The translations under genes were made by a program, and so were the position numbers. This document shows positions 38,152-43,162 of a DNA stretch of 43,162 bases, in pieces. This DNA comes from Actinocrinis puniceicyclus. GTDB taxonomy: Bacteria; Actinomycetota; Actinomycetes; Streptomycetales; Catenulisporaceae. Positions within the stretch are counted from its first letter, which is position 1; each line of letters opens with the position of its first letter. The stretch spans positions 1 through 43,162 of the forward strand of contig NZ_JAGSXH010000048.1 in the NCBI RefSeq assembly GCF_018283645.1, read 5' to 3'. The notes below the pieces were generated by a model, which was not told the DNA's origin, did not search any database, and was given only the letters and a program-made list of their open reading frames with translations.

Positions 38152-38187
38152 GCCGGTCAGTGCTCATTACCCGGCCGGTCAGTGCTC
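38152..38187. repeat. 14-bp direct repeat over the PAC2 gene stop
   Basis: GCCGGTCAGTGCTC occurs at 38152-38165 and 38174-38187, starts 22 bases apart. The second copy includes the stop and last codons of the PAC2-family gene (minus strand); the first lies just beyond it. Confidence 0.85.
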
Positions 38188-39168
38188 GCCGTCGCGGTCC
38201 TGCTCGGCAAGGAACTGTTCGAACTGCCGGGCCAGTTCCTCGGCGGTCGGGATCCGCGCCGCCTGCTCGGCCAGCAGGTCGGCCTGCGGCGTCGTGCCGG
38301 CCACCGTGTCGTACTGCACCTCAAGACCGCGGATCATCGAGCGCAGGTCGTCGTCGCCCTGGGCCACCTGCGCCTCGATCTCGGCCTCGACCCGCTGCGC
38401 CTGTTCGTGCAGCTCCTGCACCGGCAGCACCAGGCCCGTCGCCGAGGTGATCGCTTCCAGGATGCGCACCGCCGCCGCCGGATAGGGCGAACGCGAGATG
38501 TAGTGCGGGATCTGCGCGGCCAGGCCGAGCACCGCGTGCTCGCGTTCGCTGAGCCGGAACTCCACCAGCGCCATCGCCGAACCCGGCACCTGCGCCCGGT
38601 CGAACCACGCTGTGTACCCAGCCAGCAGGTCGCGCCTGTTACCGTGCGGGATCAGCGTGGTGGGGCGCGTGTGCGGAACGGCGAACGGGATGCCGTGGAA
38701 GTTGACCGACAGCGTCACCCCGAGCCGTTCGATCATCTCCACCATCGCCGCGCTGAAACGCTCCCATTCGGTGTCCGGCTCCGGGCCGTACATCACCAGG
38801 AACGGCGTGCCGATCGCGTCGTGCGCCAGCTTGACCTCAAGTCGCGGCGCCTCGTACTCGGACCAGCGGTCGGTGTCGAACGTCATCGTCGGGCGCTGCG
38901 CCCGGTAGTCCACCAGCCGGTCCGTGTCGAAGCGCGCCAGCACCGGGTTGCCCGGCTCGCCGTGTTCGCCCGCGCCTTCGAACTGGAACCGCTCGCCGAA
39001 GATGTGGTCGACCACCTGCTCGGCGGCGTGACCGGCGTCCATGAAACCCTCGTAGTGGTACAGCAGCACCAGGTCGCCGCCGGTCACGGAACCCCCGGAG
39101 GTGCCGGCGCGCGCCTCGGCCAGCGCGGCCAGCCCAGCCTGGTCCAGCTCGTAGAGTGGCTCGCCCAC
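38179..39168 (-). CDS. PAC2-family protein (proteasome-assembly-chaperone-like)
   Basis: A 329-residue PAC2-family protein. The core is recognised from YHYEGFMDAGHAAEQVVDHIF, then FLVMYGPEPDTEWERFSAAMV, then VNFHGIPFAVPHTRPTTLIPHG and SAMALVEFRLSEREHAVLGLAAQIPHYISRS. The C-terminal ~80 residues are helical, Glu/Gln-rich and likely coiled coil (EIEAQVAQGDDDLRSMI). Actinobacteria have 20S proteasomes, and PAC2-like proteins are common in them, but no proteasome gene is in the window, so the role is inferred. Start is GTG at 39168; a longer frame upstream is not plausible. Its last codons are repeated downstream of the stop. Confidence 0.85.
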   Translation of the reverse strand: MGEPLYELDQAGLAALAEARAGTSGGSVTGGDLVLLYHYEGFMDAGHAAEQVVDHIFGERFQFEGAGEHGEPGNPVLARFDTDRLVDYRAQRPTMTFDTDRWSEYEAPRLEVKLAHDAIGTPFLVMYGPEPDTEWERFSAAMVEMIERLGVTLSVNFHGIPFAVPHTRPTTLIPHGNRRDLLAGYTAWFDRAQVPGSAMALVEFRLSEREHAVLGLAAQIPHYISRSPYPAAAVRILEAITSATGLVLPVQELHEQAQRVEAEIEAQVAQGDDDLRSMIRGLEVQYDTVAGTTPQADLLAEQAARIPTAEELARQFEQFLAEQDRDGEH

Positions 39169-39378
39169 GGTTGGTCCCGTCCCATCCCTAGTCGCGTCCC
39201 GCTGCCGGCCGCGGCGATCTCGCCACCGCGCGGCACACCGAGTAACAGTCTGCCAACATCCGGGCGGCGTTGCCCATTCCGTCGGCGCGGGACGGCGCGG
39301 GCAAGTCCAAGGTCGACGCCCGCCGCTACCGATCGGCCCCGCCGTGCGGAGCAATGAGGCTCTTGGCATTCCCGCCCG

Positions 39379-39773
39379 TTGATACTGGACTGCGTTTCGG
39401 CGACAGAGTTCGAACCGAGACATCCGCCCGCAACGCTCAGGGCGCAGGAGGGCCGCCAACTCGCCCAGCGACTGCTGCCTCCGGGCGATTCGCGCACGAC
39501 GGTATGGGGTTACGGCAGCTACACCGAGGACGCGCACCCGATCCACATCCACCAGACCCAGTTCGAGGCCGTCGGCCGCACCGGTGCGGACGGCTTTGTG
39601 TGCGCCCCCGGGGCGCTGGGAGACCGGAACGAGGGACACGGTCGTCGCGCTGCCCGGCGAGCGGGACGAAAGTGCGCGCCCGTTTCGACATTCCCGGGCG
39701 GTACGTCTTTCACTGTCATATCATCGACCACGAAGATAACGAGATGATGCGGCCGTTCGACGTGCTGCCGTAA
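39379..39773 (+). pseudogene. decayed multicopper oxidase, C-terminal copper domain
   Basis: Pieces of a multicopper oxidase third cupredoxin domain in different frames. Frame A carries DAHPIHIHQTQFEAVGR (HPxHxH, at 39529-39579). A second frame holds RDTVVALPGER around 39624-39660. The third gives FDIPGRYVFHCHIIDHEDN then MMRPFDVL to the TAA at 39771 (HCHxxxHxxxxM at 39711 onward). These are the copper-site residues, so the gene once encoded a laccase/bilirubin-oxidase-like enzyme; at least two frameshifts separate them. Upstream 39169-39460 shows no recognisable domains 1 and 2, so it is also truncated. The start given is nominal. Confidence 0.8.
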
Positions 39774-40040: not shown

Positions 40041-40856
40041 ATGCAGTCAGCGCCTTACGAACCGGCCGAGGTCCGCTCCGCCGGTGCGACCACACAGTCC
40101 GTACAGTCCGTGCCCGCGCCCGCGCCCGCGGTGGGCGGTTCGCTACCGGACCCGATGCCGCGGCCGCGCTCCGAAGCGCGCGCGGCGGCCGTCATCAGTG
40201 TCCGGGGCGAGGCCACCATGCTGGTGGACCCGGAGGTCGCGGACCTGACCGTCTCGGTCACGGCGCACGCGCGCGATCGGCGCGAAGCGTTCGAGCGCCT
40301 GGTGAAACGCAACGACGAAGTGCTCGACCTGGTGCGCTCCTACGGCGACTCGGTCGACCGGGTCGAGTCGACCGGGCTGTCGGTCGCGCCTGAAATGCGT
40401 CGCGGTAAGGACGAGAAGATCCGTTCCTACGCCGGTACGGTGCGTGTGCGGGTCACGGTGGCGGACCTGGCGATCCTCGGCGAACTGATCGCCCGGCTCA
40501 CCGAGGTCGAGGCCTCCGCGCTGGAGGGGCCGTTCTGGCGGCTGCGGCGCTCCTCTCCGATCTACCGGGAGACCCGGGCCCGCGCGGTCGCCGAGGCGGT
40601 GGCCCGCGCCCGCGACTACGCGGAGGCGCTGGGCAGCCGCATCACGGGTCTTATAGAGCTCGCCGACACCGGTCTGAGCAGCAGGTCCGTGACGCAGGCG
40701 CCGCGCCCGGGCGGGCCGGTCGTGTACAGCGCGCGTGCCGTGGGCGCCGCGCAACCGGAACCGGCGGCGCTGGACCTGGAACCGCAGCAGCAGACCGTCT
40801 ACGCGAGTGTCGAGGCGAGTTTCCAAGCGGCCCAGCCCGAGTTCCCGCTGCTCTGA
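40041..40856 (+). CDS. SIMPL-domain (DUF541) protein
   Basis: A 271-residue SIMPL-domain protein. After a Pro/Ala-rich N-terminal tail (~45 residues), the domain opens with ISVRGEATMLVDPEVADLTVSV and ends with QQTVYASVEASFQA; a middle block RETRARAVAEAVARARDYAEALG is typical. In Gram-negatives family members are periplasmic; here no signal peptide is seen. The role is unknown, although family members are reported in oxidative stress and kinase interaction. ATG at 40041 follows TAGGAG at 40027-40032. Intact and of usual length. Confidence 0.85.
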   Translation: MQSAPYEPAEVRSAGATTQSVQSVPAPAPAVGGSLPDPMPRPRSEARAAAVISVRGEATMLVDPEVADLTVSVTAHARDRREAFERLVKRNDEVLDLVRSYGDSVDRVESTGLSVAPEMRRGKDEKIRSYAGTVRVRVTVADLAILGELIARLTEVEASALEGPFWRLRRSSPIYRETRARAVAEAVARARDYAEALGSRITGLIELADTGLSSRSVTQAPRPGGPVVYSARAVGAAQPEPAALDLEPQQQTVYASVEASFQAAQPEFPLL

Positions 40857-41026: not shown

Positions 41027-42475
41027 CTAGCGGAACACCCGCCTCCGGATCAGGAAACTGTGAGTTGTTCCACCGAGCCACGACACGCCCAAGCAAGCAA
41101 TCAGCACCCCGCTCGCCGCGGCGTGCGCGCCTGTACGAACCGGCGCCGCTGCCGAGACGGTGAACGCCGCGCCGACAGCGAGCGTGTAGCAGCCGGTCTC
41201 GACATACAGCATGCCGGAGCGCAGTCGTCTCGCCGCGTACCCGATCGCGATCGGTGTCAGCAGTCCGACGCTTACGAGTGGCAGCAGTGCCCACGCGACG
41301 GACGTGACGGTTTCCTTCCGCGGGTGTCGTTTGGCGTGCGTCTTTCTGCCAGCCGCACACACGCTTGCTGCTGCGCTTTCACTCGTGGCGCCGCGTTCGT
41401 CGAGGTTCCCCAAGCCGTCGGTCCGCGGCATGATCGTGTCCGAGGTGGCGCCTGCGCTCACGTTCTCGTCGACGAATGCGACAGCGTCCGAATCCGTCAC
41501 ATACGAATCCGTCGCATCTGCATCCGCATCCGTATCGATCTCGGTATCCGTATCAACCCCGGCGGCGGCGTGAATCTGGGTGTGAATCTCGGCGGCGTCA
41601 GTGGAGTCAGCGGCGTCAGCGGCGGCGTCTGCTTCGACATCGAGTGCAGCATCCGTATCGGTGCAAGCGGATGTCGTCGTGGCGGCGGCCACCAGCGTTG
41701 ATCGTCGTCGATTCTCCGCCTCGTCGAGCAGCGGGTGGCCGTCGTCTTCGAGCTTCGTGCGCAGCGGAGGGAAGGACAGAACCGCCTCAAGCGCCGATTC
41801 GGTGAACAAATCCGAAGGGCGCGCCTCGGTCGGTTCGGGCCCGAACCGCGCACGGGGCTCGGCCTCGGCCGCCGCGAACGAGCCAGGGTCGGCTGCGGGC
41901 TCGTGTCCAGCCCAGGACTCCGGCCCGCCCGCATGATCCGCGGGAGCAGCGCCAAGAGGCTCGTCCGCGTCGTCGTGCGCGCCCGGGTTCCCCTCCGCAG
42001 CCTCCCCGCTCGTCGCGTCTGCCGCTGTCGCGGGCGGCGGCGGCTCCTCGTCGGCGGTCGCCGGCGTCGCAGCCGGTAGGTCGCGCGGAGCCGCTGCTTC
42101 GTCATCGAGCAGCCGGTAGCCCTCGCGCAGCGCCAGCACCGGTAGGCCGGCCGTCTGAGCGCGCGCGACCCGGGCGTCCTGCGCACCGACGCCGTCCTCG
42201 GCGACGACGTGCGTCACCCGCACCGAGAAGCGCTGCGCAAGCTCGGCCCCGGCTGAAGCTGCCCGCTCCCGGAATGCGGCAGCCTCCCGTCCGGTGCCTA
42301 GCACCAGGATCCGGAGGGTACGACCGGAGCGCTGCGTGGGAATAGCGGCGGGCCGCTTCGCTGAGGAGGCAGAGCCCGCCTGGTCCGAAGGAGTCACTGT
42401 CGTCACGTTCGGCGAGCCTAGATCGCCCGTCACCAGCCAGCGAGCATCCGCGCCCGGCCGCGCCGCGACCCTCAC
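41027..42475 (-). CDS. BRCT-domain protein with acidic linker and C-terminal membrane anchor
   Basis: A 482-residue protein with three parts. Residues ~50-125 are BRCT-like: LRILVLGTGREAAAFRERAASAGAEL, then VTHVVAEDGVGAQDARVARAQTAGLPVLAL. Residues ~130-385 are a disordered, strongly acidic region of Asp/Glu/Ala/Thr, including repeats (DTDTEIDTDADADATD) built from short repeated codons. Residues ~385-480 contain about three hydrophobic segments: VAWALLPLVSVGLLTPIAIGY, YTLAVGAAFTVSAAA and GVLIACLGVSWLGG, ending in a basic RRRVFR tail. BRCT domains bind phosphoproteins or DNA ends, so a membrane-tethered BRCT is unusual. GTG at 42475 is assumed; no ribosome site is clear. I cannot name a function. 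Confidence 0.7.
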   Translation of the reverse strand: MRVAARPGADARWLVTGDLGSPNVTTVTPSDQAGSASSAKRPAAIPTQRSGRTLRILVLGTGREAAAFRERAASAGAELAQRFSVRVTHVVAEDGVGAQDARVARAQTAGLPVLALREGYRLLDDEAAAPRDLPAATPATADEEPPPPATAADATSGEAAEGNPGAHDDADEPLGAAPADHAGGPESWAGHEPAADPGSFAAAEAEPRARFGPEPTEARPSDLFTESALEAVLSFPPLRTKLEDDGHPLLDEAENRRRSTLVAAATTTSACTDTDAALDVEADAAADAADSTDAAEIHTQIHAAAGVDTDTEIDTDADADATDSYVTDSDAVAFVDENVSAGATSDTIMPRTDGLGNLDERGATSESAAASVCAAGRKTHAKRHPRKETVTSVAWALLPLVSVGLLTPIAIGYAARRLRSGMLYVETGCYTLAVGAAFTVSAAAPVRTGAHAAASGVLIACLGVSWLGGTTHSFLIRRRVFR

Positions 42476-42603: not shown

Positions 42604-42676
42604 GCGGACGTGGCTCAGTTGGTAGAGCATCACCTTGCCAAGGTGAGGGTCGCGGGTTCGAATCCCGTCGTCCGCT
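42604..42676 (+). tRNA. tRNA-Gly (GCC)
   Basis: A complete 73-base cloverleaf: acceptor stem GCGGACG/CGTCCGC, T-loop GGTTCGAATCC, anticodon stem CACC/GGTG with loop TTGCCAA, so anticodon GCC reading GGC and GGU. No CCA is encoded. It is 28 bases upstream of tRNA-Val and probably co-transcribed. Confidence 0.96.
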
Positions 42677-42704
42677 CGCGGTACCGGTTCGCACCGGATC
42701 CTGA

Positions 42705-42776
42705 GGACGATTAGCTCAGCGGGAGAGCGCTTCCCTGACACGGAAGAGGTCACTGGTTCAATCCCAGTATCGTCCA
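42705..42776 (+). tRNA. tRNA-Val (GAC)
   Basis: A 72-base cloverleaf: acceptor stem GGACGAT/ATCGTCC, anticodon stem CTTCC/GGAAG with loop CTGACAC, so anticodon GAC reading GUC and GUU, T-arm CTGGTTCAATCCCAG. No CCA is encoded. It follows tRNA-Gly and probably shares its promoter. Confidence 0.96.
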
Positions 42777-43162
42777 CACGTGACAGCAGGTCAGAGGCGC
42801 TCCGGAATTCTCCGGCAGGGCCTTTTTGATCGTTTGTTAGATTTTGGTTAGACGTGGATCATCGCGATTGCCCCAGAACGAGGCTGAACCACCGCGAATC
42901 TCGCACCCTCCCGTGACGCGTCGGTCGATGGCGCGTCGTCGTCCTCGTCGGCCGCGCGCGGACCCATCGGTGTCGGGCTAGGCGGGCGCGCGGCCGACGA
43001 GGGCTGCGCTTCGATTTCGACGACCGGTCAAGGCGCAAGGCCGCGAAGTTAAGGATTCCGGGTGCTTGTCCAGCGGATCGGTGCTGGCGTGTTGAGCAGC
43101 GCGCATAGAGAACGAGACCTCTGATAGATCAGGGCGGTCCGCCAAGACTGTCCCGAATCAGA
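42777..43162. other. 386-base region after the tRNAs, no gene seen
   Basis: The first 70 bases are AT-richer than elsewhere. A stem CCGGA/TCCGG (42802-42815) followed by TTTTT at 42823-42827 is a plausible tRNA terminator. A 17-bp stem hairpin follows at 42943-43002. No convincing coding frame was found, and no integrase or attachment repeat was recognised despite the tRNA location. Confidence 0.5.
42943..43002. repeat. perfect 17-bp inverted repeat with 26-base loop
   Basis: 42943-42959 and 42986-43002 are perfect reverse complements (core CGTCGGCCGCGCG / CGCGCGGCCGACG). The loop is 26 bases. It is about 165 bases after tRNA-Val. It could be a terminator for a gene beyond the window or a DNA-binding dyad; a T-run is absent. 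Confidence 0.7.

Follow-up and report, generated by a model that had tools for sequence, protein, structure and literature searches.

A conserved actinobacterial protein that joins a BRCT-like domain to a membrane module through a long acidic linker

The stretch of DNA analysed here, hereafter the window, comprises all 43,162 nucleotides of contig NZ_JAGSXH010000048.1 of Actinocrinis puniceicyclus, the genome of which amounts to 6.77 Mb in 430 contigs. The ORF list contains an ORF at 41027-42475 on the minus strand, with a GTG start and a product of 482 amino acids. A preliminary description of the sequence had divided this ORF into three parts, and we found the same layout in relatives at one locus, namely a BRCT-like domain (residues 52-131; 42083-42322, minus strand), an acidic low-complexity linker (residues 132-385; 41321-42082, minus strand) and a C-terminal membrane module (residues 386-482; 41030-41320, minus strand). 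Judged by sequence comparison, this layout is conserved and both end domains have homologues. The true start may be the alternative GTG at 42406 (residue 24), where the aligned relatives have Met. By codon position the G+C content of the ORF is 73.7/60.0/75.8, a less typical pattern than in the clearer genes measured, which show 84-90% at the third position, so that the reality of the gene rests on its conservation; the least typical values fall within the linker part. A chance ORF was ruled out by the occurrence of the same three-part layout at the same locus in relatives. A Pfam scan of the 482-residue protein revealed no enzyme domain, and Pfam, NCBIfam and PDB sequence searches returned nothing decisive, the best PDB matches having E values of 0.65 or worse.

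The gene and a tRNA-Gly(GCC)/tRNA-Val(GAC) pair (42604-42677 and 42705-42777, both on the plus strand) are divergently oriented, and this arrangement, seen as mere adjacency to tRNA genes in the preliminary description, is repeated at three Actinospica-type loci (L008-L010). The window also carries genes for a SIMPL (DUF541) protein (40041-40856, plus strand) and a PAC2-family protein of uncertain start (38179-39639, minus strand). Both also lie near the BRCT-like gene in L009, the one relative in which farther neighbours were scanned, where an FHA-ABC-type gene, a TrmB-like gene and two unassigned genes stand between the BRCT-like gene and SIMPL/PAC2. Because the tRNA pair is shared by all four loci and SIMPL/PAC2 by the window and L009, the locus is most likely orthologous across the carriers and not a mobile insert. 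Overlapping frames at 39270-39773 of the window (plus strand) hold pieces which from their motif we presume to resemble a multicopper oxidase C-terminus and which are scattered over more than one frame, as would be expected of a decayed gene.

The protein, which is confined to few soil actinobacteria among those surveyed, was present in 4 of 60 genomes, including its own (G000, G001, G003 and G005), and the carriers include Actinospica durhamensis and A. acidithermotolerans. Within the family, 4 of 14 genomes encode it, corresponding to all four genomes of genera g1 and g2 and none of the ten of genus g3, two of which are less than 85% complete. A first scan of contigs using 73 residues of the window domain detected no relative. 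In genus g3 a different gene, of the trypsin family in L078 (the g3 locus scanned), lies beside the tRNAs. A tRNA-Cys separates tRNA-Gly from tRNA-Val in all five outgroup loci read (L078-L082), and the two are adjacent in the window and L008-L010; the tRNA-Cys was likely lost or moved in the lineage of the window and its Actinospica-type relatives.

The N-terminal domain scored below threshold with both PTCB-BRCT (PF12738; E 0.098, 13.1 bits against a cut-off of 22) and PF00533 (13.2 bits against a cut-off of 21.3). Since an ORF of the same genome, which we take from its sequence to be cysteine-desulfurase-like, reached 12.8 bits with PF00533, Pfam alone proves nothing about BRCT identity; the three Actinospica-type relatives gave no Pfam BRCT match. 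Structure prediction, which the preliminary description had proposed as a check on the fold, yielded a weak AlphaFold model from three sequences (pLDDT 64.8, pTM 0.48) that did not show a clear BRCT and neither establishes nor excludes one, and BRCT was absent among the Foldseek and VIA matches listed for this model (50 each). The last helix of BRCT domains carries a conserved Trp. This residue was absent in all four aligned homologues and present in other relatives, including L151 (see below).

Profile comparisons connected the domain with BRCTs that Pfam recognises. Against 32 BRCT sequences the domain profile scored 28.1 over 69 colinear columns, as compared with a mean of 10.0 and a maximum of 20.6 in 200 column-shuffled controls, so that profile homology to recognised BRCTs extends in colinear register. 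The 32-sequence set, mostly LigA-type, was composed of 26 of 30 loci (L112, L117, L125 and L128 were dropped for length), three sequences from a PF00533 search and three first BRCTs of exonucleases, that of L015 being the one tested against Pfam. With hhalign, the probability was 95.9% to the second BRCT-like domain of exonuclease-BRCT-TerD proteins and 67.9% to a set made up of first BRCTs and those of LigA, as compared with 0.1% for a membrane-module control; profile A5 gave only 20.9% with profile A6 and 71.1% with the larger BRCT set. When the 32 BRCT sequences were mixed with 3200 shuffles, the combined profile A10 placed 16 of them in the top 32 of 3232, with a shuffle as the top match, and the four-row profile A2 placed 9. 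Among 62 windows of real proteins, those containing the second BRCT-like domain came out on top (47.9), and the Pfam-recognised first BRCT of the exonuclease scored 21.8. The BRCT window of LigA (17.6) did not surpass other windows from LigA (18.1), and LigA alone therefore lends no support to the BRCT assignment.

These observations bear on the possibility that the N-terminal domain is another small alpha/beta fold resembling BRCT, in which case the protein would be an uncharacterised anchored domain. The low-confidence model with no BRCT among its listed structure matches, the sub-threshold Pfam scores and the undistinguished LigA window are all consistent with such a fold; however, the shuffle-controlled profile tests favour BRCT homology, and the domain shares 38% identity over 71 gap-free residues with the head domain of the DUF4011 protein L151, for which the only Pfam signals (E up to 1) in isolation were PTCB-BRCT (E 0.0021) and BRCT (E 0.0064), both sub-threshold. 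We consider a non-BRCT fold quite improbable. Taken together, the comparisons point to a divergent relative of BRCT at the N-terminus, for which we use the term BRCT-like without filing it as a BRCT member. As for NAD-dependent DNA ligase LigA, a soluble repair enzyme, the likeness consists in the remote profile similarity to the mostly LigA-type set, whereas the window domain has no Pfam-level BRCT signal and the BRCT of LigA is by itself not outstanding.

The closest relatives of the domain were found in other protein contexts. With profile A2, matches turned up in 15 of the 119 genomes of the order, comprising the four family members and 11 genomes of genus g4, and with profile A10 in 12 of 296 genomes of the class, the own genome included. 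Scans of two of the g4 proteins, L015 and L017, showed both to be of the exonuclease-BRCT-TerD type, with the match falling on their second BRCT-like domain; A10 secondary matches to the first BRCT of exonucleases were insignificant (best i-Evalue 0.013). In Streptomyces-type exonucleases this second domain gave a Pfam BRCT match in none of six cases, and its profile found no BRCT in the PDB. It is homologous to window residues ~49-131, and the PADLOC model PDC-S48, which represents these DEDDh exonuclease-BRCT-TerD proteins, matched window residues 49-131 with E 7e-10, through model positions 338-419 of 512 only. Neither the three relatives nor the domain of one relative taken in isolation gave a PDC-S48 match. 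The known proteins contain an exonuclease, a Pfam-recognised BRCT and TerD, whereas the window protein lacks the DEDDh exonuclease and TerD domains by Pfam, as well as the recognised BRCT, and has a membrane anchor instead. In L151, one of the A10 matches, a BRCT-like domain forms the head of a DUF4011 protein, the DUF4011 part of which matches PDC-S37; the part of L151 read differs from the window protein in that DUF4011 follows the head domain and the membrane module is absent.

Such kinships to exonuclease-BRCT-TerD proteins (PDC-S48) and to a PDC-S37-like protein could be taken to mean that the window protein is a stress or anti-phage component, in which the BRCT-like domain, after the manner of the related candidate defence proteins, would sense or recruit nucleic-acid damage factors and act via the membrane anchor. 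PADLOC PDC models are candidates only, and it is to these models that the kinship leads. Moreover, the locus is fixed beside tRNA, SIMPL and PAC2 genes, and Pfam detected none of the exonuclease, DUF4011 or TerD parts in the window protein. We therefore regard this role as improbable.

The preliminary description had also stated that BRCT domains usually read DNA ends or phospho-signals. Phosphopeptide-binding BRCTs occur as tandem domains with a phosphate pocket containing Ser/Thr-Gly and Lys. The window protein has a single domain and the pocket residues are not conserved across the four homologues; Thr-Gly is present at the pocket position in the window, although none of the three Actinospica-type homologues has the Ser/Thr-Gly. 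The domain carries almost no net charge (+1). Neither a DNA-end nor a phospho-signal reading finds support in these features.

The linker of the window protein, described beforehand as some 250 residues of acidic disordered sequence, comprises about 254 amino acids with 54 D+E and 14 K+R and a net charge of -40, and from this composition it is probably disordered. The linkers of the relatives are likewise acidic, with net charges of -50, -77 and -61 over 182, 373 and 180 residues, respectively. All four homologues carry one LxFPPL/LxYPPL motif in the linker, which in the window reads LSFPPL (residues 233-238; 41762-41779, minus strand), with FPPL at residue 235. In shuffled linkers the motif arose at frequencies of 0.0001 to 0.0004 in 20,000 trials each; the product of the four frequencies is not a probability, because the four linkers are related.

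The C-terminal part contains three hydrophobic stretches, and an AlphaFold model of the module built from 13 rows (mean pLDDT 84.7) showed helices at about 386-396, 407-418, 421-442 and 450-480, with a short helix turn at 398-401. This amounts to a helix-break-helix followed by two long helices. A Foldseek search with the module returned nothing (best E 3.9), and no Pfam family matched it above cut-off in the proteins scanned. Mean charges over the 13 rows were +2.69 for loop-1, -1.38 for loop-2 and +2.31 for the C-flank. Two related modules have a recognisable domain on their N side, a kinase in L100 and Trans_reg_C/BTAD in L109, both through weak matches (E 5.8e-9 and 2.0e-9), and others have a kinase or HhH on the C side. 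On the basis of the loop charges and these flanking domains, we infer that the C-terminus, and probably the N-terminus, lies in the cytoplasm, in which case the first hydrophobic stretch would be re-entrant.

We found that the module is homologous, over its whole length of ~95 residues, to modules carried by Ser/Thr kinases and by HHH_3 proteins of actinobacteria such as Planobispora, Herbidospora, Acrocarpospora, Microbispora and Actinomadura, in which, in contrast to the window protein, the kinase or HhH is mostly C-terminal to the module and replaces the N-terminal BRCT-like domain and acidic linker. At E <= 1e-6 it occurred in 18 of 345 genomes of the class, the own genome included. Besides that of the window, the matches numbered 26, of which 14 fell within ORFs that carry a kinase motif, 11 within ORFs bearing the HhH signature and one within an ORF that was truncated; these labels derive from motif searches, with which Pfam agreed for eight module proteins of three surveys, finding a kinase in L044 and L100 and HHH_3 in L030, L042, L051, L053, L056 and, below cut-off, L109. 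At 9 of the 17 loci that one survey found outside Actinospica, an ORF for a kinase is adjacent to one or two ORFs for HhH proteins, all of them with the module. In Acrocarpospora and Herbidospora (L042-L050, L083) HhH-membrane-module and membrane-module-kinase genes occur in tandem, possibly as a two-gene system. In L109, a BTAD/SARP-type regulator, the membrane module is weakly related, and an HhH stretch lies at the C-terminus. Weaker module matches were found at six loci of genus g4, in short proteins with neither kinase nor HhH motif. The survey of neighbours and co-occurrence advised in the preliminary description thus placed the layout in 4 of 14 family genomes and the combination of BRCT-like domain and module, among the genomes surveyed, in g1 and g2 only. 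A broader conception, which we hold to be rather improbable, is that the module is a shared docking anchor gathering Ser/Thr kinases together with nucleic-acid-type modules (HhH, BTAD-regulator and BRCT-like) at a single site on the membrane, with the window protein as the BRCT-like branch of a membrane-based signalling or DNA-response hub.

The homology of the anchor to those of Ser/Thr kinases suggests a further alternative, a phospho circuit in which a membrane Ser/Thr kinase would phosphorylate the Thr/Ser-bearing acidic linker (25 Thr and 16 Ser in the window) and FHA- or BRCT-type readers would dock on it. One such reader could be the neighbouring FHA-ABC exporter of Actinospica. In two of the three Actinospica-type loci an FHA-FHA-ABC-ABC2-type transporter gene lies directly downstream of the BRCT-like gene (L008, 1935-4682, minus strand; L009, 8845-11391, plus strand), its FHA and ABC parts being confirmed by Pfam for L008. 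In Mycobacterium the kinase PknF regulates the FHA-ABC transporter Rv1747 through phosphorylation, according to excerpts of a published account (PMC5549992). In contrast to that system, no FHA-ABC transporter is encoded next to the window protein, and a search of its own genome matched the ABC part but never the FHA part; in L010 a DUF1707 gene follows the BRCT-like gene and the FHA-ABC neighbour is likewise absent. The earlier remark that the gene has no clear partner holds for the window. In addition, the Thr residues of the linker are not conserved (two in L008 and eight in L010), the four homologues do not share the residues of the phosphate pocket, and the module search detected no kinase with this anchor in the own genome, where the window protein was the sole match. 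We view the phospho circuit as fairly unlikely.

The explanation we prefer, with a probability of roughly 0.45, is that the window protein is a non-enzymatic membrane adaptor whose BRCT-like domain lies in the cytoplasm at the end of a long tether. In this adaptor the C-terminal module would insert into the membrane as a re-entrant or broken helix followed by two crossing helices, and the acidic tether of ~250 residues, presumably disordered, would hold the BRCT-like domain under the membrane and give it reach. The BRCT-like domain would capture a partner protein near the membrane, DNA being a less likely target, and the conserved FPPL/YPPL-type motif of the tether would probably serve as a second docking site. 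The geometry first proposed for the protein thus stands as far as the BRCT-like domain, the acidic tether and the anchor are concerned, all of which are conserved, but not in the suggested reading of DNA ends or phospho-signals.

Most known BRCT domains belong to soluble proteins of DNA repair and replication. The titles and abstract openings listed, which lie outside subscription journals, contained no report of a membrane-anchored bacterial BRCT protein. The window protein is a lineage-restricted new combination of domains, with parts of known kinds and a module to which Pfam assigned no family above cut-off in the proteins scanned. A conserved membrane-tethered relative of BRCT would let bacteria bring this kind of partner recognition to the membrane, and the anchor that it has in common with kinases and HhH proteins would open a way into a class of membrane proteins of actinobacteria that is as yet undescribed.
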